From assembly GCF_008693385.1 (NCBI RefSeq), contig NZ_CP044067.1:1054001-1118000 (forward strand): DNA of 64,000 nucleotides. Reading direction: 5' to 3'. The number at the start of each line of letters is the position of its first letter. Within the stretch, counting starts at the first letter, position 1. Of the stretch, positions 19,712-56,972 are shown piece after piece. The DNA comes from Cupriavidus pauculus. GTDB lineage: Bacteria; Pseudomonadota; Gammaproteobacteria; Burkholderiales; Burkholderiaceae. The notes beneath the pieces are model-generated. The model was not told where the DNA came from. It ran no database searches and was given only the letters and a program-made list of their open reading frames with translations. Made by a program: the position numbers and the translations under genes.

Positions 19712-22483
19712 TCAGCGACGGTCTTCGTTGCGGGCCTGTTGGCCGCGCTGCTGCTGGAACTGACGCTGTTGCTGCTGTTGTTGCTGCTGCTGATGCTGTT
19801 GTTGCTGACGCTGCTGCTCGAATGCCTGCCGTTGCTGCTCCTGCGCCTGGCGTTGCTGTTCCATCTGCTGGCGCTGCATCGACTGTTGCCGCTGCTGCTC
19901 CATCTGCGCGCGCTGCTGTTCCTGCTGCGCGCGTTGCATCGCCTGCCGCTGCTGATCCTGCTGCTGCCGCTGCTGCTCGAACGCCCGTTGCTGTTCCTGC
20001 TGAGCCCGCTGCATGGCCGCCCGCTGCTGATCCTGCTGCTGCCGCTGCATGTCCTGCGCGCGTTGCTGCTCCTGCTGCGCGCGCTGCATCGCCGCCCTTT
20101 GCTGGTCCTGCTGCTGACGTTGCATGTCCTGCGCCCGTTGCTGATCCATCTGCGCGCGTTGCATCGCCGCCCGCTGCTGGTCCTGCTGCTGCCGCTGCAT
20201 GTCCTGCGCGCGCTGCTGCTCCATCTGGGCCCGTTGCATGGCCGCCCGCTGTTCATCCTGCTGCTGCCGCTGCTGGGTAAATGCCCGCTGCTGATCCTGT
20301 CGCGCGCGGTCGCCCGCCGCCTGCTGCTCGCCGAGCTGGCGTTGCTGTTCCATCTGCTGCCGTTGCAACGCCTGTTGCTGCTGCCGCTGGAAGTCCGATC
20401 CCTGCCGCTGCTGCTCCTGCAACTGCCGTTGCTGTTCGAACTGCTGCCGCTGCAATGCCTGTTGCTGCTGCCGCTGGAAATCCGGTCCCTGCCGCTGCTG
20501 CTCCTGCAACTGCCGTTGCTGCTCGAACTGCTGCCGCTGCAATGCCTGTTGCTGCTGCCGCTGGAAATCCGGCCCCTGCCGCTGCTGCTCCTGCAACTGC
20601 CGTTGCTGCTCGAACTGCTGCCGCTGCAATGCCTGTTGCTGGCGCTGTGCCTCGGCCGGCAAGCCTCGCATCTGGTCCGGCCGCGTCGAGTAGGTGCGGC
20701 CGTTGTCCGCCGCACCGGGCGCCGAAACGAAACCCTGCGGCTGCCCCGATCGGCCCGGCTGCCCTTGCTGCCACGACTGCCGGTCGCGCGGATGCTGCGC
20801 CGCCTGACTGACCCGCACATCCGAATACGACGCCACGGGCTGCGGCGAGCGGCCCGGCTGCCGTGCATCGGGCACCTGCGGCCCGCGCCATGCCGGACCG
20901 GCGCCCGCCGTGCCGCCTTCCCGCGCAAACCGCCGCGCGAGGTCGTCGCTCCGGACAAACCCCGGCGCCCGCGCCGCGATGGCCTCGCGATCGAACGTCT
21001 GCCGCGCCTGCGGCGGAAGATTGCGAACCGGCGCACCGCCGATCAGGCTCGTCTTGACCGGGGCGATCGCGGGTCCGCCATGCGCCTCGCCACCGGGAAT
21101 CCGGCGCCACTCGTCGTTGTGCCCGCCTGCCCGATAGGGCGCGGACGGCCGCCCTTCGACGAACCCGCGCGCCGGCATGCCCGTGATCGCGCCGGGCACG
21201 CCCCGGTTGAACCAGCGATCCCGATCGCCACGCCCGTTCCAGTCGCGCGCCCCATAGTTGATGCGCGTCAGATACGTCGGACTCGACCGATAGATCGGCC
21301 GGTACCGTTCGCCGGGCCCCAGCGGATACCACGCGACGCCGGGCCCGCCGCCGATGCGGATCTGCGTCGAGCTGCCGATAAAGCCGACCACGGCCGGCGC
21401 GTAATAGGGCCGCACGTTGGCCGGCCCCGGCACCCATCCCCAGCGATTGCCCACATGCGCCCAACGCCCATAATGCGACGGCGCAAACCCCCATGGCGCA
21501 TCATCGACCCACGTCCAGCCCCAGGGCGCCACCCATGCCCACTGCCCCACGCTATACGGCGCCCATCCCGGCGACACCGCGCGCGGGAACCAGACCGCGC
21601 CATAGTCGGCGTCCTGCTGCCAGTCGCCGTAATCGTCGAGCGCCGTATACCCGGTCATGTCGCGCGGGACATACTGCGCCGCCACCGACCGGTCTTCGCG
21701 CGCATCGCGGTCCGCGGTCCAGCGGTCGAACGCATCGGTCGGCGCAAGATTGCCCGCGCCGGCGTCGGCCAGATCGGTTCCGGCGAACCGCACACGCTCG
21801 CCGCGCTCGAGTTCGGTGGAGCGGCTGTCGCCATAGAGCACGGCGCGGCCATGCCGCATCGTGACCGTCGTGGTGCTGCCATCGGGCGCGACATCCAGCC
21901 GGTAGTCGCCCGGCTCGCTCGGCACGAATGCCAGGTTCGGCGTATCGACCTCGACGGTCTGTCCCTGCGGCAGCGCGCGCACGCGCAACTGCAGCGTGCC
22001 CTGCGTGAGCTTGACCTGCGTGGTGTCGTCATCGAGATTGAGGACGGACACCGCGGTCGCCCCGGCCAGCCGCACCGCCGTCGAGCCCGCATGGAGTTCC
22101 GCCCGGCCACCGGGATCGACCCACAACCGGTCGCCCGTGGTCACGGGGCGGTTGAGCCCCGTCGCCGCCCAGGTGTCGGAGCCCGCCGGCGCAAAGCTGA
22201 CGTTGCCGCCGACATCGGTCAGCGTGGCCACCCGCGACGAGGGGTCGGCGCCCAGCGCCGCGTTGCCGGGATCGCCGAGCGGATTGCCCGAGGGATCGAC
22301 GGGCTGGCCATAATCCTGTCCGCCCTGCCCCGGTGGGTACCCATAGCCTCCCTGACCGTACCCCTGCGCGCCGGCCGAGGCCGCGATCACGCTGGCCAGC
22401 ACCACGGGCGCAAGCCGCCACGAGGTCGCAAGCTTCGGACGCTTCGGTCGCTGGGGATCGATGGAGATAGAAAAGGGGCGCAT
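19712..22483 (-). CDS. Large secreted FecR/DUF6600-like protein with Gln-rich repeat tail
   Basis: A 923-residue protein. Residues about 22-40 form a signal peptide (LAPVVLASVIAASAGAQ). A FecR-like beta domain follows (about 85-230: RVATLTDVGGNVSFAP, GDRLWVDPGGRAELHAG, VEVDTPNLAFVPSEPGDYR). Next are repeated Trp/Tyr-rich motifs (GYTALDDYGDWQQD, WVAPWGWTWVDDAPWGFAPSHYGRW in two pieces) typical of DUF6600 proteins. From about residue 613 to the end it is almost only Gln, Arg, Ala, Met and Glu in tandem repeats, likely a long coiled or disordered tail. The function is unknown; an envelope location is inferred. The promoter should lie in 22484-22785. Confidence 0.85.
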   Translation of the reverse strand: MRPFSISIDPQRPKRPKLATSWRLAPVVLASVIAASAGAQGYGQGGYGYPPGQGGQDYGQPVDPSGNPLGDPGNAALGADPSSRVATLTDVGGNVSFAPAGSDTWAATGLNRPVTTGDRLWVDPGGRAELHAGSTAVRLAGATAVSVLNLDDDTTQVKLTQGTLQLRVRALPQGQTVEVDTPNLAFVPSEPGDYRLDVAPDGSTTTVTMRHGRAVLYGDSRSTELERGERVRFAGTDLADAGAGNLAPTDAFDRWTADRDAREDRSVAAQYVPRDMTGYTALDDYGDWQQDADYGAVWFPRAVSPGWAPYSVGQWAWVAPWGWTWVDDAPWGFAPSHYGRWAHVGNRWGWVPGPANVRPYYAPAVVGFIGSSTQIRIGGGPGVAWYPLGPGERYRPIYRSSPTYLTRINYGARDWNGRGDRDRWFNRGVPGAITGMPARGFVEGRPSAPYRAGGHNDEWRRIPGGEAHGGPAIAPVKTSLIGGAPVRNLPPQARQTFDREAIAARAPGFVRSDDLARRFAREGGTAGAGPAWRGPQVPDARQPGRSPQPVASYSDVRVSQAAQHPRDRQSWQQGQPGRSGQPQGFVSAPGAADNGRTYSTRPDQMRGLPAEAQRQQQALQRQQFEQQRQLQEQQRQGPDFQRQQQQALQRQQFEQQRQLQEQQRQGPDFQRQQQQALQRQQFEQQRQLQEQQRQGSDFQRQQQQALQRQQMEQQRQLGEQQAAGDRARQDQQRAFTQQRQQQDEQRAAMQRAQMEQQRAQDMQRQQQDQQRAAMQRAQMDQQRAQDMQRQQQDQQRAAMQRAQQEQQRAQDMQRQQQDQQRAAMQRAQQEQQRAFEQQRQQQDQQRQAMQRAQQEQQRAQMEQQRQQSMQRQQMEQQRQAQEQQRQAFEQQRQQQQHQQQQQQQQQRQFQQQRGQQARNEDRR
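19790..20643 (-). repeat. Gln-rich tandem repeats in the FecR/DUF6600-like gene
   Basis: Two repeat families lie in series. The first is about 87 bp (29 residues) with core FEQQRQLQEQQRQGPDFQRQ in three near-identical copies (about 20380-20640). The second is about 75 bp (25 residues) with core MQRAQMEQQRAQDMQRQQQ in four to five variants (about 19980-20260). Unit lengths are multiples of three, so copy change keeps the frame. Confidence 0.8.
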
Positions 22484-22785: not shown

Positions 22786-24141
22786 TCAGCGCGGCTGGTT
22801 GCGCAGGAAATCGGTCAGGCGATCCGGCGCCATCGGCCGGCCATACAGGTAGCCCTGCGCCTCGTAGCAACCGTTCGCGAGCAGGAAGTCGCGCTGGCCC
22901 GCGGTCTCCACGCCTTCGGCCACCACGCCGATGCCCAGGCTGTTGCCGACCGTGATGACGGAATTGACGATCGCGGCGTCCACGCCGTCATCGACGACGT
23001 TGCGGATAAAGGACTGGTCGATCTTGAGCCGGTCCACGGGAAACGACTTGAGGAACGACAGCGAGGCGTAGCCCGTCCCGAAGTCGTCGCAGGTCAGCGT
23101 CACGCCGTCGCGGCGCAGCGCCTGGAGCTGGTCGGAAACGTCGTCCCCCTGCTGGAGCGCGATCGTTTCGGTAATCTCGATCTCGAGCAGCGAGGGCGGC
23201 AGCTCGAGCGCGCGCAGCACGTGCCGGACTTCGGTCAGCAGCCGGCTTTCGGCCAGCTGGGCGGCAAACAGGTTGATGGCGACGCGCGGCGCTTCCTCGC
23301 CGAACTGGAGCGACCACGCCCGCGCCTGCGCGCAGGCCGTATGGAGCAGCCACATGCCGACGTCGCTGGCGACGCTGCTGGCGGCCAGCGCGTCGATAAA
23401 CGCGGCCGGCGTGAGCAGGCCGAGCGTCGGATGGCGCCAGCGCATGAGCGCCTCGGCACCGAGCACCCGCCCGTCGCGCAGATCGACCTGGGGCTGGTAC
23501 AGCAGCTCGAACTGCCGCTGGGCATAGGCCTCGCGCAGGGCCTGGACCAGCGACAGGCGCGTCGTCACGTCCGTGCGCATCTGCGGCTTGAAGAAACGGA
23601 TCGTCCGGCCGCCATCGTGCTTGGCGCGCGCGAGCGCCAGGCTGGAGGCGGCCAGCACGTCGGAAGCGGTATCCCCGCCGGCCGGCAGCACGCACGCGCC
23701 GACGCTGGCCAGCACATGATGGCGGCGACCGGCCATTTCATACGGGGCGGACAGCATCGACTGGATCGCGGCACTGACGTGGCGCACCAGAGTGGGGTCG
23801 GAAATGGACGTCAGCAGGACGCCGAATTCGTCGCCGCCGACGCGGCCGATCACCGCATCGCGCGGCGAGGCATCCTTGAGACGACGGGCCACGTGCTGGA
23901 GAATCAGGTCGCCTTCGGCGTGGCCATGCATGTCGTTGAACGCGCGAAAGTCGTCGATCCCCACAAGCAGCAAGGCGAAACGGGGCGTCGCGTCCGTCTG
24001 CAGACGCGTTTCCAGCCGCTTCAAGAATGCCTGGCGGGCGACCACGCCGGTCAGCGGATCGAGGTCCGCCGGCGGCAAGGCGCCAGTCGCCTTTGCCTCC
24101 GACTTGGCCACCATTCCTGCCCTATCTGTTGTGAATGACAT
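22786..24141 (-). CDS. GGDEF-EAL cyclic-di-GMP turnover protein
   Basis: A 451-residue cytoplasmic protein. The GGDEF domain (about 28-185) has the intact [11 protein letters not shown] motif. The EAL domain (about 200-445) keeps EALMRW, the Asn of VAINLF, Glu of [19 protein letters not shown], the Lys of [12 protein letters not shown] and QGYLYG, so both catalytic sets appear complete. No sensory or membrane domain precedes them. It could make or degrade c-di-GMP; in many such proteins the EAL activity dominates. It is divergent from wspA with 215 bp between, placing it next to the operon for the diguanylate cyclase WspR. A start at codon 10 is also possible. Confidence 0.92.
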
Positions 24142-28667: not shown

Positions 28668-31630
28668 ATCCCGAACAGCTACGCGATGCGTCGATGCTCG
28701 AGCTGTTCGCGCTCGAGGCCGACTCGCAGGCGGAGGTCCTCAATGCCGGCGTGCTCGCGCTCGAACGCGACCCCGTGGCGGCGGATCACCTCGAAGCGTG
28801 CATGCGCGCCGCGCATTCGCTCAAGGGCGCGGCGCGCATCGTGGGACTCGATGGCGGCGTGCGGGTCGCGCATGTCATGGAAGACTGCCTGGTGGCGGCA
28901 CAGCGGGGCGGGCTGCTGCTGTCGCCCGCGCATATCGATGCGTTGTTGCAGGGGACTGACCTGCTGCAGCGCATCGGGCGGCCGCCGGGGGGCAGGGTCG
29001 ATTGGTCGGAGACCGATGGGCGTGCGGAGATCGATGCGTTTGTTGTGCATATGTCTGCGGTGCTCGATGGGACGGTGGGGTCGTCGGTGCAGGGGGGGCG
29101 TGTAGCGGGACTGAGCGCGCATGTGCCATCGGCAACCGTGGCCGATCCCGACAGCCGGGGCCGGGCCGACGCGGGCCCAATGGCTGCCCCGACGGCGGGT
29201 CCGACCGCCGCCCCGATCACCGCCCCAATCGCCGCCCCAATCGCCGCCCCGATTGCCGACCCGATCGCCGCCCCGATTGCCGCCCCGATCGCCGCCCCGA
29301 TCGCCGCCCCGATTGCCGCCCCGATCGCCGCCCCGACTGCCGCCCCGATCGCCGCCCCGATCGCCGCCCCGATCGCCGGCCCGATGGCTGGCCCGATGGC
29401 TGGCCCGATGGCTGGCCCGATTACCGGCCCGGTCGCTCGCCCGTTTGCTAGCCCGGTCGCTGGCCCGATTACCGCCCCGGTCGCTGGCCCGATTACTGGC
29501 CCGATTACCGGCCCGGTCGCTGGCCCGGTCGCTGGCCCGGTTGCTGGCCCGGTTGCTGGCCCGGTTGCTGGCCCGGTTGCTGGCCCGGTTGCTGGCCCGG
29601 TCGCTGGGCCGGTTGCTGGCTCGGTCGCTGGGCCGGTTGCTGGGCCGGTTGCTGGGCCGGTTGCTGGGCCGGTTGCGGGCCGGGTTGCTGGCCCCGCTGC
29701 TGGGCCGACTGCTGGCCCGGCGGCCGGGGCTTCGCCCTCGGCGTTCGCCACAGCGCCCGTATCCGCGCGCGGCTCGGCGCCCAGTGGCACTCCCGGTGGC
29801 GCGCCCGGCAGCGCGTCTGCCGCCCCCGCGCCCATCCCGCGCCACGACACCGGCCTCGTCGACGACAGTCATGGCAAACAGGAACGCATGCTCCGCGTCA
29901 ACGCCGACCGCCTCGACAGCGTCCTCGCGATGGCCGGCGAGGCCATGGTCGAGACGCACTGGCTGCATCCGTTCGGCGTGGCGCTCCAGCAGACGCGCCG
30001 CCAGCAGATGCGCGTCATGCAGGCCGTCGACAGCATGCAGGCACTCCTGGCCAGCCCCGATGCCAGCGCCGCCCGCATGGGCGCCGCCCTCGCCGACCTG
30101 CGCCGCATGCTCGGCGAGGCCAGCGACCAGCTCTCCCAGCGCGCCGACGAACTCGACCAGTACGATCATCGCGCCACGCGCCTCTCCCGCCGGCTCTACG
30201 ACACGGCGCTCTCGTGCCGCATGCGTCCGCTGTCCGACGGCATCACCGGCTACGCACGCATGGTGCGCGACCTCGGCCGCGCGCTCGGCAAGTCGGTGCA
30301 CCTCGAGCTCTCGGGCGAACACACGCAGGTCGATCGCGACATACTGGAGCAACTCGACGCCCCGCTCGCGCACCTGCTGCGCAACGCGGTGGATCACGGC
30401 ATCGAGACCCCCGAGGCCCGCCGCGCGGCGGGCAAGCCCGAAGAAGGCCGCATCTCTCTGCACGCGCGCCATAACGCGGGCCGCCTCGTCATCGAGATCT
30501 TCGACGATGGCGCTGGCGTCGACTTCGACGCGCTGCGCGCGACCATCGTCCGGCGCGGCCTCGCGCAGCCCGATACCGCCACGCGCCTGTCGCAGGCGGA
30601 GATGCTCGAGTTCCTGCTGCTACCCGGCTTCAGCCTGCGCGAGACCGTGTCCGAGGTATCGGGCCGCGGCGTCGGCCTCGACGCCGTACAGGACATGGTG
30701 CGCGGCGTACGCGGCAGCCTGCGCGTGACGCAGCAACCCGGCAGCGGCATGCACTTCCACCTCGAACTGCCGCTCACGCTGTCCATCGTCCGCGCGCTGC
30801 TCGTCGAAGTGGCCGGAGAAACGTACGCGTTTCCGCTCGGCCATGTGCTGCGCGCCGTCAGCGTGGCCCGCGAAGACATCGAGCAGGTCGAAGCGCAGCA
30901 GCACTTCCGGCACGACGGCAAGCCGGTCGGCCTCGTCAGCGCCGCGCAATTGCTGCAGCGCCCGGAACGCCCGCAGGAAGATGCCGCGATTCCGGTGGTC
31001 GTGCTCGGCGAGCACGACCGCGTCTATGGCGTGGCCGTGGACCGGCTGATCGGCGAACGCACGCTCGTCGTGCAGCCGCTCTCGCCGGCGCTCGGCAAGA
31101 TCAAGGACATCGCGGCCGGCAGCCTCACGGACGACGGCACCCCCGTGCTGATCTTCGACGTCGAGGACATGCTGCGCTCGGTCGAGAAACTGGTGTCCGA
31201 CGGCCGCCTCGCGCAGGTGCGCCAGGTGGGACCGGAAGCCGGACAGGTGCGCCGCAAGCGCGTGCTCGTCGTGGACGATTCGCTGACCGTCCGCGAACTC
31301 GAGCGCAAGCTGCTTGCCGGACGCGGCTATGATGTCGCCGTCGCCGTCGATGGCATGGACGGCTGGAACGTGCTGCGCGCGGAGAAGTTCGACCTCGTGA
31401 TCACCGACGTCGATATGCCGCGCATGGACGGCATCGAACTGGTCGGGCGCATTCGCGCGGAGCCGGCCCTCCAGCAGTTGCCGGTGATGATCGTTTCGTA
31501 CAAGGACCGTGAACAGGACCGCGAACGCGGCCTGCAGGCCGGCGCGGATTACTATCTGGCCAAAGGCAGTTTCCACGATACCGCACTGCTCGACGCGGTA
31601 CAGGACCTGATCGGCGAGGCACGCGCATGA
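28664..31630 (+). CDS. wspE: WspE, hybrid CheA-type histidine kinase/response regulator with a repeat-expanded linker
   Basis: A 988-residue protein, roughly 200 longer than usual WspE. Domains in order: Hpt (about 1-130) with phospho-acceptor His51 in AAHSLKGAARIVG; a linker of residues 171-355 made almost wholly of four-residue repeats (PIAA, PMAG, PVAG); the dimerisation and ATPase core (about 405-690) with HLLRNAVDHGIETPEARRAAG (N box) and DDGAGVDFDALR (G1); a CheW-like domain (about 690-850); and a receiver with VITDVDMPRMDG (Asp acceptor) and the Lys of YLAKG. It phosphorylates WspR and WspF. The core looks intact; only the linker is abnormal. Confidence 0.93.
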   Translation: MNPEQLRDASMLELFALEADSQAEVLNAGVLALERDPVAADHLEACMRAAHSLKGAARIVGLDGGVRVAHVMEDCLVAAQRGGLLLSPAHIDALLQGTDLLQRIGRPPGGRVDWSETDGRAEIDAFVVHMSAVLDGTVGSSVQGGRVAGLSAHVPSATVADPDSRGRADAGPMAAPTAGPTAAPITAPIAAPIAAPIADPIAAPIAAPIAAPIAAPIAAPIAAPTAAPIAAPIAAPIAGPMAGPMAGPMAGPITGPVARPFASPVAGPITAPVAGPITGPITGPVAGPVAGPVAGPVAGPVAGPVAGPVAGPVAGPVAGSVAGPVAGPVAGPVAGPVAGRVAGPAAGPTAGPAAGASPSAFATAPVSARGSAPSGTPGGAPGSASAAPAPIPRHDTGLVDDSHGKQERMLRVNADRLDSVLAMAGEAMVETHWLHPFGVALQQTRRQQMRVMQAVDSMQALLASPDASAARMGAALADLRRMLGEASDQLSQRADELDQYDHRATRLSRRLYDTALSCRMRPLSDGITGYARMVRDLGRALGKSVHLELSGEHTQVDRDILEQLDAPLAHLLRNAVDHGIETPEARRAAGKPEEGRISLHARHNAGRLVIEIFDDGAGVDFDALRATIVRRGLAQPDTATRLSQAEMLEFLLLPGFSLRETVSEVSGRGVGLDAVQDMVRGVRGSLRVTQQPGSGMHFHLELPLTLSIVRALLVEVAGETYAFPLGHVLRAVSVAREDIEQVEAQQHFRHDGKPVGLVSAAQLLQRPERPQEDAAIPVVVLGEHDRVYGVAVDRLIGERTLVVQPLSPALGKIKDIAAGSLTDDGTPVLIFDVEDMLRSVEKLVSDGRLAQVRQVGPEAGQVRRKRVLVVDDSLTVRELERKLLAGRGYDVAVAVDGMDGWNVLRAEKFDLVITDVDMPRMDGIELVGRIRAEPALQQLPVMIVSYKDREQDRERGLQAGADYYLAKGSFHDTALLDAVQDLIGEARA
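29174..29728 (+). repeat. 12-bp tandem repeats encoding the WspE linker
   Basis: About 46 units of 12 bp. The first block has unit GCCCCGATCGCC and codes APIA; the second has GGCCCGGTTGCT and codes GPVA, with intermediate PMAG and PITG units. Unit length is a multiple of three, so gain or loss of units changes linker length without frameshift. All other frames are also open through most of it. Confidence 0.93.
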
Positions 31631-53991: not shown

Positions 53992-54828
53992 CTATTTATC
54001 GGCCACGCGACGCCATCCTTCCGTGGAAAACGACCGCATCGCGGCGGCCCGACTGGCCGTGGAAGTGCCGAGATCGCGTTCGTAAAAATTTCTTTCCGCG
54101 TCGATCAAAAAGGTGTGTACGCCACTTTCGCCGTATCGGGCGGGCCATGCGATAAACGCGAACCGCGTCGCGCCGGCGCCCGTGCCGGGCGGGAGCACGC
54201 GAAAACGGTAGCCGTAATAGGCGTCTTCGGGCGGGACATCGGGGCCCATGGCGAGGGCGTCGGGGCCGATCGGGCTGGCGTCGGCCTCGGTGTCGGACGG
54301 CCAGTAGAGGCCATCGGTGCGGCCCCGCGAGCTCACGATACGTTTGGCGAAGGCGCCGTTGCCGACCTGCTGCGCGTAGCGCTGCTGGGCATCCGCGAGT
54401 TGCAGCAGCGAATCCATCGCCACGAGTTCGTTACGGGCGATGCGGCGGTCGCGCACTTCCTCGCGGCCTGCCTTGAGGTCGAACTGCCAGCCGGCGGGGC
54501 GCTTGACGATCGGCGCGGGGAACGTCCAGCCGCTGTCGCCCACGGCAATGCGCATGGCGTTGTCGCCGGCAGGCTGGAGCGCGTGGTGCGCGGCCCAGGC
54601 GCCGAGAAAGTCGTAGATATCGTCCTGCGTGATGCCTTCGGGCGGCAGAAGCGTGCGGTATTGATTGCCGAGTACCTTGCGCAGGGCATCCTGGTCGCTG
54701 CGGGCGATGGCATCGCCGAGGGCGTTCGAGGCGGCTTCGGCGGTGTCGAAGACCTGCTGTGCGGCGACGGGTGCGGCCACCATGACGACCGCAGCCATGG
54801 CCACGACTGCCTTTAGCGCCGCCCTCAT
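53992..54828 (-). CDS. DUF2950 exported protein
   Basis: A 278-residue protein with signal peptide up to VAAQ (start [21 protein letters not shown] three bases upstream). The body matches DUF2950: [45 protein letters not shown] (two pieces), [18 protein letters not shown], and the end [23 protein letters not shown]. The function is unknown; DUF2950 genes are usually beside DUF3300 genes, as here. A longer in-frame start at 55485, coupled to the DUF3300 stop, would add about 219 residues of repeat; which start is used is open. Confidence 0.88.
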
Positions 54829-54845
54829 CGCCACCTCGATCACCC

Positions 54846-55377
54846 TCGCCAGCCTCGCCGCCCTCGCCAGCCTCGCCAGCCTCGCCGCTCTCGCCGCTCT
54901 CGCCGCCCTCGCCGCCATCGCCGCCATCGCCGCCATCGCCGCCATCGCCGCCATCGCCGCCATCGCCGCCATCGCCATGGTCGCCATGGTCGCCGGGGCC
55001 GCCGGGGCCGCCGTGGCCGCCATCGCCGTGGTCGCCGTGGTCGCCGTGGTCGCCGTGGCCGCCATCGCCGTGGTCGCCGTGGTCGCCGTGGTCGCCGTGG
55101 TCGCCGTGGTCGCCGTGGCCGCCGTGGCCGCCGTGGTTGCCGTGGTTGCCGTGGTTGCCGTGGTTGCCGTGGTTGCCGTGGTTGCCGGGGTTGCCGGGGT
55201 TGCCGGGGTTGCCGGGGTTGCCGGGGTTGCCGGGGTTGCCGGGGTTGCCGGGGTTGCCGGGGTTGCCGGGGTTGCCGGGGTTGCCGGGGTTGCCGGGGTT
55301 GCCGGGGTTGCCGGGGTCGCCGGGGTCGCCGGGGTCGCCGGGGTCGCCGGGGTCGCCGGGGTCGCCGGGGACGGCAT
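54846..55377. repeat. 9-bp minisatellite between DUF3300 and DUF2950
   Basis: About 60 imperfect tandem 9-bp units (for example CCGGCAACC on the minus strand). One minus-strand frame reads as collagen-like Gly-Asn-Pro, Gly-Asp-His and Gly-Gly-Asp triplets; the frame joined to DUF2950 reads Ala-Thr-Pro; plus-strand frames are open too. Blocks of identical units show recent expansion. It has no spacers, so it is not CRISPR. Confidence 0.92.
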
Positions 55378-55485
55378 GGTCGCCCGGGGCGCGGCGGTGG
55401 GCGCCTCGCATGCCGTCGTCGTACCCGCTACGCCATGTGCGTCGCCGCGGCCTGTGGTTGCCTTCCCGATCGTCGTTCCGGTCAT

Positions 55486-55495
55486 GCTCACCTCC
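55486..55495 (-). promoter_or_regulatory. Strong ribosome binding site before the ATG at 55485
   Basis: GGAGGTGAGC directly precedes ATG at 55485, and the DUF3300 stop codon TGA lies inside it. The frame from this ATG stays open through the minisatellite into DUF2950, so translation coupled to DUF3300 is suggested. Confidence 0.7.
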
Positions 55496-56972
55496 GTCCG
55501 TGCCCGCCATGGCCCATGCCGCCCCGTTGCACGCCGTGCGGAGCACTCATGCCGCCCGCATTGCCGGTTCGCTGGAACCCGCCCTGCATCTGCCCCATGC
55601 GCGCACCCTGCTGCTGCAGGCGCTGGCCGTTGCCGGCGTCCCGCAGCGCGCTGTCGCGGTTGGCTGTATGCGCGCGATTGCGTGCCTCGCTCGCGTCCGC
55701 GCGTTGCCGGTCCGCGCCGGCCGGCCGCGGATTGGCATTCGCGCCGCCGCCGTGCCCGGCGATCGACTGTCCCGTGTGCCCCTGGAACGACTGCGCGGCG
55801 CGATCGCGCGCCGCATCGCGCGAACCGGGCTGTGCCTGCGTGCCACCGCCGCCCGCGCCCAGCCGCTGTTGCGCGCCGCCCTGCCCGAGTTGCTGCCCCG
55901 CCTGCTGGCCCCCACCCCCTTGGCCCAGCCGTTGCTGCCCGCCGCCCTGCCCGAACTGCGGCCCGGCCTGCTGGCCCGCGCCGCCCGCGCCCAGCCGTTG
56001 CTGCGCGCCGCCCTGCCCGAACGGTTGGCCGGCCTGCTGGCCCGCGCCCCCCTGCCCGAGCCGCTGCCCACCTTGCCCGCCCTGCGTCCGACTGGCCAGT
56101 GCCTGCTGGCGCTGCGCATCGTACCGATTGGCCACCCCCGGATTGTTGTAGGGCACGTTGCCACGCGCGGCCGGATTGTGTTGCCAATTCACGTTCGACC
56201 GATTGACATCGAGTTGTCGGTTCACATTGATGTTGTTGTACCGATTCACATTGATGTTGACGTCATGACGCCCCCAATCGCAACCGCCCCATAGCGAATT
56301 GACGGCCGCCACGCCAAGCCCGAACCCGATGCCCGCCACCAGCGACGTGGCAAACACCGACCCCGGCGGCGGCGGATAGTAGGCAGGCGGATAGGCCGGA
56401 TACGGCCACGCGCCATAGACCACCGTCGGGTTGTACGACGGCACATAGACCACCTGCGGATTCGCGGGCTCGATCTGCACGATGGTCGTGCCGCCACTCT
56501 GCTGCGTCACGACCTTCTGCTCGGGCGTGGTTTTCAGCGAGCCCGCCTTCTGGGCCTGCGCGCGCAGGCGCTGCACGCCATTCATGACATCGTCGGGTTG
56601 CGCGAGAAATGCATCGCCGACCGACTGCACCCATTGCGGCTGCCGGCCCATCATGTCCATCACCGACGGAAACGCCACCAGCGACTGCACGCTCGGATCC
56701 CACGACTCGCCCTGCACCGCCTTGGTCGCGGCATCGCCGGACAGCGACGGATTGGCCTTCGACCATTGCGCGGCCGCCGCGACATCGGCCGGATAGGTCG
56801 ACGCCATCAGCACCTGCGACAGCAGCGCATCGGGATACAGCGCGATAGGCGCCAGCAACTGATCGAGCTGGCCGTTACCGAGCTTTGCCTGCGCGTAGAC
56901 GGAGGTCGGCGAGAACGACACCGCTGCCAGCATCAGCAGCGACAACACGGCACGCATCAGGCGATGTGACAT
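55488..56972 (-). CDS. DUF3300 exported protein with Gly/Gln-rich repeats
   Basis: A 494-residue protein with signal peptide ([21 protein letters not shown]). The DUF3300 domain (about 32-240) has [23 protein letters not shown] (in two parts), [26 protein letters not shown] and [22 protein letters not shown]. Then comes an Asn-rich part ([16 protein letters not shown]) and four repeats around [27 protein letters not shown] lies seven bases before the start. Function unknown; paired with DUF2950. Confidence 0.9.

Follow-up and report, generated by a model that had tools for sequence, protein, structure and literature searches.

A 12-bp in-frame repeat array in the probable tether of the WspE kinase of Cupriavidus pauculus

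We analyzed a 64,000-nucleotide stretch of the Cupriavidus pauculus genome (NZ_CP044067.1, positions 1,054,001 to 1,118,000; hereafter the window) that holds a wsp operon. Its hybrid kinase gene, wspE, carries 46 consecutive 12-bp tandem units in frame between the histidine phosphotransfer (Hpt) domain and the catalytic core. We consider it likely that this array is a coding minisatellite, or in-frame variable-number tandem repeat (VNTR), in a disordered tether of WspE with at most a graded effect on signaling, a judgement on the account as a whole in which a measurable effect is included but not required. The length of this tether is stretched further in the window's species than in any other WspE we measured.

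The array and the linker it lengthens

The units lie head to tail inside the open reading frame (ORF), have a length that is a multiple of three and together make up 552 bp encoding 184 amino acids (aa) (Table 1). The first-pass annotation of this sequence had reported about 46 in-frame units between Hpt and the core, which parsing of the units bears out; it placed them at residues 171-355, but only residues 171-354 are in register and codon 355 falls outside it. It had also described two blocks of near-identical units. An APIA-rich and a GPVA-rich block are indeed present, but the array contains 24 distinct 12-mers, coding for 14 distinct tetrapeptides, and a mixed stretch joins the blocks. 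The commonest tetrapeptides over the whole array are GPVA (14 units), APIA (11), GPMA (4) and GPIT (4). Tandem Repeats Finder (TRF) returned a period of 12 with 27.7 and 28.6 copies (scores of 312 and 399), and the longest exact match at a 12-bp shift is 59 bp. Neighboring units are identical in 13 of 45 pairs, a number that none of 20,000 random orderings of the units attained. The further apart two units lie, the less alike they are (identity of 0.84 at lag 1 and 0.66 at lag 23), a pattern that growth by local duplication would produce. Over the later half of the units, GC content at third codon positions (GC3) drops to 0.53-0.70.

Two other origins of the array were considered and rejected. 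DNA hairpins do not appear to have driven its expansion: dinucleotide-shuffled controls fold better than either strand (z +3.44 and +2.94 for the two strands), and we therefore see no special DNA structure in the array. Borrowing from another protein was set aside: of the 14 proteins retrieved with the array region as query, none is listed with a kinase domain and some carry FAS1 or PT-repeat annotation. Matches of array residues to circumsporozoite protein in the Protein Data Bank (PDB) were taken as low-complexity chance matches. No description of a WspE repeat array was found in the literature covered, mostly titles and the beginnings of abstracts with few subscription journals among them. 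In the available text of a paper on glyphosate adaptation in B. anthina, tandem repeats come up but wsp does not.

For comparison, the linker was taken to run from residue 104, where Hpt ends, to residue 408, where the core starts (RMLRV), which gives 303 aa for the window WspE. Linkers span 65-151 aa (median 82) in 78 of 80 loci from genome contigs, L019 and L068 being omitted because the gene is split over two frames, and 63-136 aa (median 79) in 118 of the best 120 database relatives, P0004 and P0062 being omitted for want of an Hpt part. P0004 (labelled B. pseudomallei, 1066 aa), in which part of the core is repeated and no Hpt matches, was not used and looks like a duplication or an assembly artefact. 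A wider set of 131 distinct proteins, the window's being the 131st, came from 153 of 168 loci; it missed L019, L068 and L100-L112, the last of which are lower-scoring kinases and not WspE. The 40 added loci were hand-picked, many for long open frames, which makes for a harsher outlier comparison. The linkers of the 130 other WspE proteins in this set are 56-180 aa long, and the GPVA/APIA array was seen in none of them. The longest linker seen other than the window's, 204 aa, belongs to the Burkholderia vietnamiensis-like set described below.

Among the matches listed, the closest cores are those of P0002 (labelled C. plantarum; 94% identity), G183 (95%), G005 (93%) and P0003 (92%), with linkers of 110, 110, 120 and 120 aa, respectively, and no array. 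The two closest listed proteins are 795 and 805 aa long versus 988 aa in the window, in agreement with the first-pass estimate that this WspE exceeds the usual length by about 200 residues. Subtracting the 184 array residues from the window linker leaves 119 aa. Because this remainder is similar in length to the linkers of the relatives (110 and 120 aa), the simplest reading is that the array was added to an ordinary linker, and the expansion would then be younger than the splits from the nearest relatives. In a separate comparison with L113, the head of the linker (28976-29074, codons 105-137) has non-synonymous differences at 6 of 33 codons; the counts are 0 of 104 for Hpt and 30 of 581 for the core.

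Linker length is also the part of WspE that changes most often between close relatives. We compared 203 pairs whose cores are at least 96.5% identical, restricted to cores longer than 560 aa and to pairs passing a word filter, and not independent of each other: 119 differ in the length of the linker, 25 in that of the core and 1 in that of Hpt. Overall length is far steadier in the CheA-like kinases of these genomes than in WspE: in the 18 Cupriavidus genomes listed, the open frames have 676-685 codons in 15 and 741-744 in 3, these being stop-to-stop lengths in which the three longer frames may be upstream extensions. This control covers 18 of 19 Cupriavidus genomes, G012 having no listed row, and the row of G016 has an internal stop.

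An AlphaFold model built on 43 sequences (mean predicted local distance difference test score (pLDDT) 66.8, predicted template modeling score (pTM) 0.41) has a confident Hpt bundle and, beyond the linker, long helices at residues 414-519 followed by the ATPase, CheW and receiver domains. The model suggests that residues 136-413, which include the array, are probably disordered. A Pfam search gave no match in WspE to the P2 domain or to H-kinase_dim (P3), which sets the protein apart from a canonical CheA; H-kinase_dim matched twice in the genome, neither time at wspE, and helices 414-519 occupy the P3 position in the model. In the available text of a Wsp comparison, the region between Hpt and HATPase is likewise without similarity to CheA P2 and P3 and was left unannotated (PMC8552884).

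Linker variation in Burkholderia and other lineages

Variation between strains was found at the same linker site in Burkholderia, where 118 of 119 proteins, taken from the best 120 matches, were measured (P0219, which lacks Hpt, was left out). Five of the 118 fall in none of the four core groups and have linkers of 168, 82, 85, 83 and 85 aa. The B. vietnamiensis-like group consists of 58 distinct proteins within 98.5% core identity of P0253, of which 50 are labelled B. vietnamiensis and 8 are unnamed, Burkholderia sp. or MULTISPECIES. These proteins carry an in-frame 15-bp array with about 18 copies in L132, and their linkers take 21 different lengths between 103 and 204 aa. The flanks of the linker are fixed, with an Hpt part of 104 aa and a core of 579 aa, and the cores are at least 99.3% identical. 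Moreover, 24 proteins that share one identical core span linkers of 103-184 aa. The 15-bp array differs from the window's in unit length and in the encoded peptide and is therefore probably of independent origin. The first-pass proposal that slippage changes the linker length in frame is partly supported: the window's array keeps the frame and lies in this linker, whose length changes among these proteins and between members of the close pairs described above. Slippage during replication would be one route to such change and recombination between repeats another.

Short-read collapse is unlikely to account for all of the Burkholderia variation, since several of the lengths (proteins of 794, 847, 852, 857, 868 and 888 aa) come from contigs larger than 2 Mb. 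P0136, labelled B. ubonensis, has a 168-aa linker identical to that of P0164 (B. vietnamiensis), while the Hpt parts are 90% and the cores 94.5% identical. Identical linkers between differing flanks suggest recombination as a route by which the array also passes from one species to another. The other core groups have shorter linkers: 75-91 aa in the B. ubonensis-like group (19 proteins), in some cases through one or two GANT units at the end, 85-88 aa in the B. territorii-like group (6 proteins) and 82 aa in all 30 B. multivorans-like proteins, whose 15 distinct linkers contain no visible array. The available text of the Wsp comparison cited above gives WspH, not WspR, as the Wsp output of nearly all Burkholderia studied (PMC8552884).

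Arrays in the linker extend to further lineages. At a TRF score of at least 50, we identified a linker array in 31 of the 131 distinct wspE genes, compared to 2-9 after codon shuffling (20 rounds). The share of linker bases that fall inside arrays is 8.1% (about 6.8% when the window gene is set aside), versus 0.33% of bases elsewhere in the same genes, and the period is a multiple of 3 in 49 of 50 TRF rows. Lowering the score to 40 raised the number of genes with linker arrays to 43 of 131, versus 5-16 among codon-shuffled sequences; at that score 62 of the 131 genes also have an array outside the linker, covering only 1.0% of those bases. All of these counts describe the sample and not events, related sequences not being independent. 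The unit differs by lineage, with a PPS run in L016, a SNAT-like unit in L113 (a C. plantarum relative) and five-residue units in L131 and L132. Overall, the linker between Hpt and core of WspE is a hot spot for arrays, which recur with different units.

The wsp operon and other repeats of the window

The genome is 7,064,126 bases long in 3 contigs, and the window is part of contig 3 (3,096,601 bases); among the matches listed, the closest wspE relatives are Cupriavidus. As in the Wsp R-system known from Pseudomonas and Cupriavidus, WspE here combines Hpt, HATPase_c, CheW-like and C-terminal receiver domains in one protein and is adjoined by genes for a chemoreceptor, two CheW proteins, CheR, CheB and a receiver-GGDEF protein (Table 1). 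It departs from other WspE proteins of that system in its 303-aa linker (56-180 aa in the 130 proteins, at most 204 aa). The gene sits between the wspD-like CheW and wspF-like CheB genes, and the receiver-GGDEF gene comes next. Since a receiver-GGDEF gene follows wspF, the gene content identifies the operon as R-type Wsp, in which the domains and the wspABCDEFR order look intact; the wspR-like protein is the probable output. H51 in Hpt and D915 in the receiver are both kept, being invariant in 43 aligned sequences. H51 would be the phosphorylated histidine, judging from the family and the likeness to CheA, and D915 the putative phosphoacceptor, by analogy with CheY. The best PDB relatives of the HATPase_c domain are CheA kinases. 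The wspC-like ORF overlaps the preceding wspB-like ORF, and its true start is therefore probably downstream of the annotated 26399. Directly upstream of wspA, on the opposite strand, a GGDEF-EAL gene (22786-24141) is a second cyclic di-GMP gene by the operon.

Table 1. Coordinates of the wsp genes, WspE domains and repeat features in the window
Feature	Start	End	Strand	Evidence
wspA-like chemoreceptor (4HB_MCP, HAMP, MCPsignal)	24135	25976	+	Pfam
wspB-like CheW protein	25983	26495	+	Pfam CheW; putative start codon
wspC-like CheR methyltransferase with TPR	26399	27868	+	Pfam CheR
wspD-like CheW protein	27861	28667	+	Pfam CheW
wspE hybrid kinase, 988 aa, ATG start, open frame	28664	31630	+	ORF, Pfam, core identity of relatives 92-95%
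Hpt domain, residues 11-101, H51 in HSLKG motif	28694	28966	+	Pfam, alignment
Extra helix after Hpt, residues 120-135, in conserved linker head	29021	29068	+	AlphaFold model
Probable disordered tether, residues 136-413	29069	29902	+	pLDDT mostly < 50, no secondary structure
46 consecutive in-frame 12-bp tandem units, residues 171-354	29174	29725	+	TRF, unit parsing
APIA-rich block, 13 units	29222	29377	+	Unit parsing
Mixed units, mostly GPMA, GPIT and GPVA with a few odd ones, 11 units	29378	29509	+	
GPVA-rich block, 15 units; five identical in a row at 29534-29593	29510	29689	+	
Helical region opening the core, residues 414-519, placed like the CheA dimerisation region	29903	30220	+	AlphaFold model
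HATPase_c catalytic domain, residues 567-705	30362	30778	+	Pfam
CheW-like domain, residues 711-840	30794	31183	+	Pfam
Receiver domain, residues 867-979	31262	31600	+	Pfam
wspF-like CheB methylesterase	31627	32649	+	Pfam
wspR-like receiver-GGDEF diguanylate cyclase	32698	33705	+	Pfam Response_reg and GGDEF

The window is unusually rich in long arrays, with three of at least 300 bp in 64 kb. A 9-bp tandem array at 54828-55384, comprising 46.6 copies of one unit at 54972-55384 with related units before them, is possibly a leader or intergenic VNTR; it is flanked by a DUF3300 gene (55488-56972, minus strand) and by an apparent DUF2950 signal-peptide start inside an ORF at 53992-56187 (minus strand). 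An 877-bp compound array (19765-20641) encodes repeats rich in Gln and Arg at the C terminus of a DUF6600 protein (19712-22483, minus strand), and similar arrays are present in the sister genome G005 (L215, 7226-8197). Inside the DUF3300 gene, a 66-bp unit is repeated 3.2 times at 55857-56067. A tendency of the whole genome towards long arrays was tried as an explanation and rejected: 20 other 20-kb stretches of the same contig (400 kb) contain one array of at least 300 bp, in a sampling confined to contig 3. With so few long arrays elsewhere on the contig, the wspE array is more than a chance draw from a genome full of repeats. The same length class is represented by 2 arrays in 400 kb of G005 and by 0 in 200 kb each of G290 and G007.

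Tether length and Wsp signaling

The proposed tether would join the phosphorylated Hpt of WspE to the dimerisation and ATPase core. The array probably grew after the split from the nearest relatives, and its length may have been tolerated since all that is required of the tether is that Hpt can get to its partners. Lengthening would bring about a graded change in how concentrated Hpt is near the ATPase domain, and possibly near the receiver domains, so that copy number could adjust WspR output mildly, in the manner of a tuning knob and not of a switch. Treating the tether as a simple chain with a persistence length of 0.4-0.8 nm, we estimated the local Hpt concentration with a 303-aa tether to be 0.25-0.46 of that with a 119-aa tether for gaps of 0-5 nm, and 0.46-0.85 for a gap of 7 nm; relative to an 82-aa tether the ratio runs from 0.14 to 1.21. 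The predicted effect of length is thus graded, modest and dependent on geometry.

Known systems lend the proposal some analogy. The P1-P2 and P2-P3 linkers of CheA are flexible tethers by which the domain that is phosphorylated is brought to the core of the kinase (PMC10653900, PMC5705603), and the available text of the first of these sources describes P1 and P2 as attached through long disordered linkers (PMC10653900). CheA differs in having a P2 docking domain, to which WspE has no match. In CaMKII, according to the portion of the source available, the length of a disordered linker shifts the balance of autophosphorylation, which a long linker can flip (PMC7141811), but these are isoforms of a human Ser/Thr kinase and not repeat-number alleles. 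Borg elements, as described in the accessible part of one report, resemble the present case in that fast-evolving, independently arising tandem repeats create new intrinsically disordered regions (PMC9879509); they are archaeal and extrachromosomal, and do not involve the tether of a signaling kinase. A further likeness is that of the B. vietnamiensis-like WspE, in which the same linker carries an in-frame array of variable length between strains, albeit with a different unit and peptide. Graded tuning of phosphotransfer by tether length is plausible, though we would place it some way short of probable.

Several points weigh against the reading of the array as a length-variable tether that affects signaling. 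No second strain of the window's species was present among the best 120 protein matches, which included no near-identical protein, and the genome collections include a single genome for each species or exclude entries closely similar to the window. Counting the distinct kinds of substitution within both blocks gave 5 synonymous and 4 non-synonymous, compared to a chance expectation of 31% synonymous, which is no clear evidence that the repeat peptide is under selection. The single linker length of the B. multivorans-like group indicates that variation is not needed for Wsp function. Finally, the direction of the estimated effect depends on the reference, a gap of 7 nm with a stiffness of 0.4 nm giving 0.85 against 119 aa but a rise to 1.21 against 82 aa.

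The main rival explanation is neutral drift, in which the length of the linker is hardly constrained and arrays come and go by slippage in GC-rich, Pro/Ala-coding DNA with no effect on signaling. We judge its chances to be evenly balanced, and it fits the sequence facts about as well as tuning does. Both the sequence and the length of the linker differ greatly among the lineages measured, the units show no clear selection, as described above, and the array is Ala/Pro-rich like other linkers (P 0.24 and A 0.32, versus medians of 0.22 and 0.25). Neutral drift fits less well with the much smaller length variation of the CheA-like kinases in the same genomes, and with the excess of arrays over the codon-shuffled expectation, though a purely mutational cause would produce that excess too.

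Further from the evidence is a contingency locus, in which rapid changes in copy number would toggle Wsp between phases and be selected as bet hedging. The hypervariability between strains of the analogous Burkholderia array speaks for it, as does the repeated adaptive mutation of Wsp (PMC6324874, PMC8552884), which the first-pass annotation had invoked in calling Wsp a mutational hot spot. However, 12-bp and 15-bp units keep the frame, and no on/off state arises from gain or loss of a unit inside the gene; a strict on/off form of the contingency-locus-like control that the earlier annotation proposed is therefore not supported. The named Wsp mutations, moreover, lie elsewhere than in this linker. 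In the available text of the reports, they are placed in WspF, WspA, WspC, WspR and the receiver domain of WspE (PMC6324874, PMC8370652, PMC6692513) and, for the Burkholderia H-system, in conserved regions flanking the WspE HATPase domain (PMC8552884), and the accessible portions of these four sources place none in the linker between Hpt and core. We regard a contingency locus as improbable.

The array may instead have a job of its own: it could form a polyproline-like rod, offer a binding surface, or associate with itself and so cluster WspE. Its composition is in keeping with this, as charged residues make up 1.6% of the array versus a median of 16.7% in other linkers and the Gly fraction is 0.15 versus a median of 0.04; the near-absence of charge could matter separately from length. 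The unit is not conserved between lineages (GPVA here, five residues in Burkholderia), however, and none of the 14 proteins returned by the array-region search is listed with a kinase domain, which leaves this explanation distinctly improbable. An assembly or sequencing artefact is the least likely of all, verging on negligible: a 552-bp array does exceed typical short reads, but the 24 different units stand in ordered blocks, the frame is intact and the window belongs to a contig of 3,096,601 bases in a 3-contig genome.

Returning to the in-frame VNTR in a WspE tether, a bolder form of the proposal, which we put forward tentatively and consider doubtful, is that the tether is a recurrent, mutation-prone length dial for surface sensing in proteobacteria: arrays would be acquired independently, strains would differ by up to about 80 residues on identical cores, and length would set the gain of Wsp with no catalytic change. 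Wsp serves as a model for predicting the evolution of biofilm types by mutation, and the forecasts, in the available text of two studies, treat substitutions, inactivating mutations and in-frame deletions (PMC6324874, PMC8370652). A fast, in-frame and graded change of the tether would, if true, be another sort of mutational route. The B. vietnamiensis-like alleles, with linkers of different lengths on the same core, are a ready natural series for relating tether length to kinase gain, and polymer models of tethered domains make the question of length and gain quantitative.

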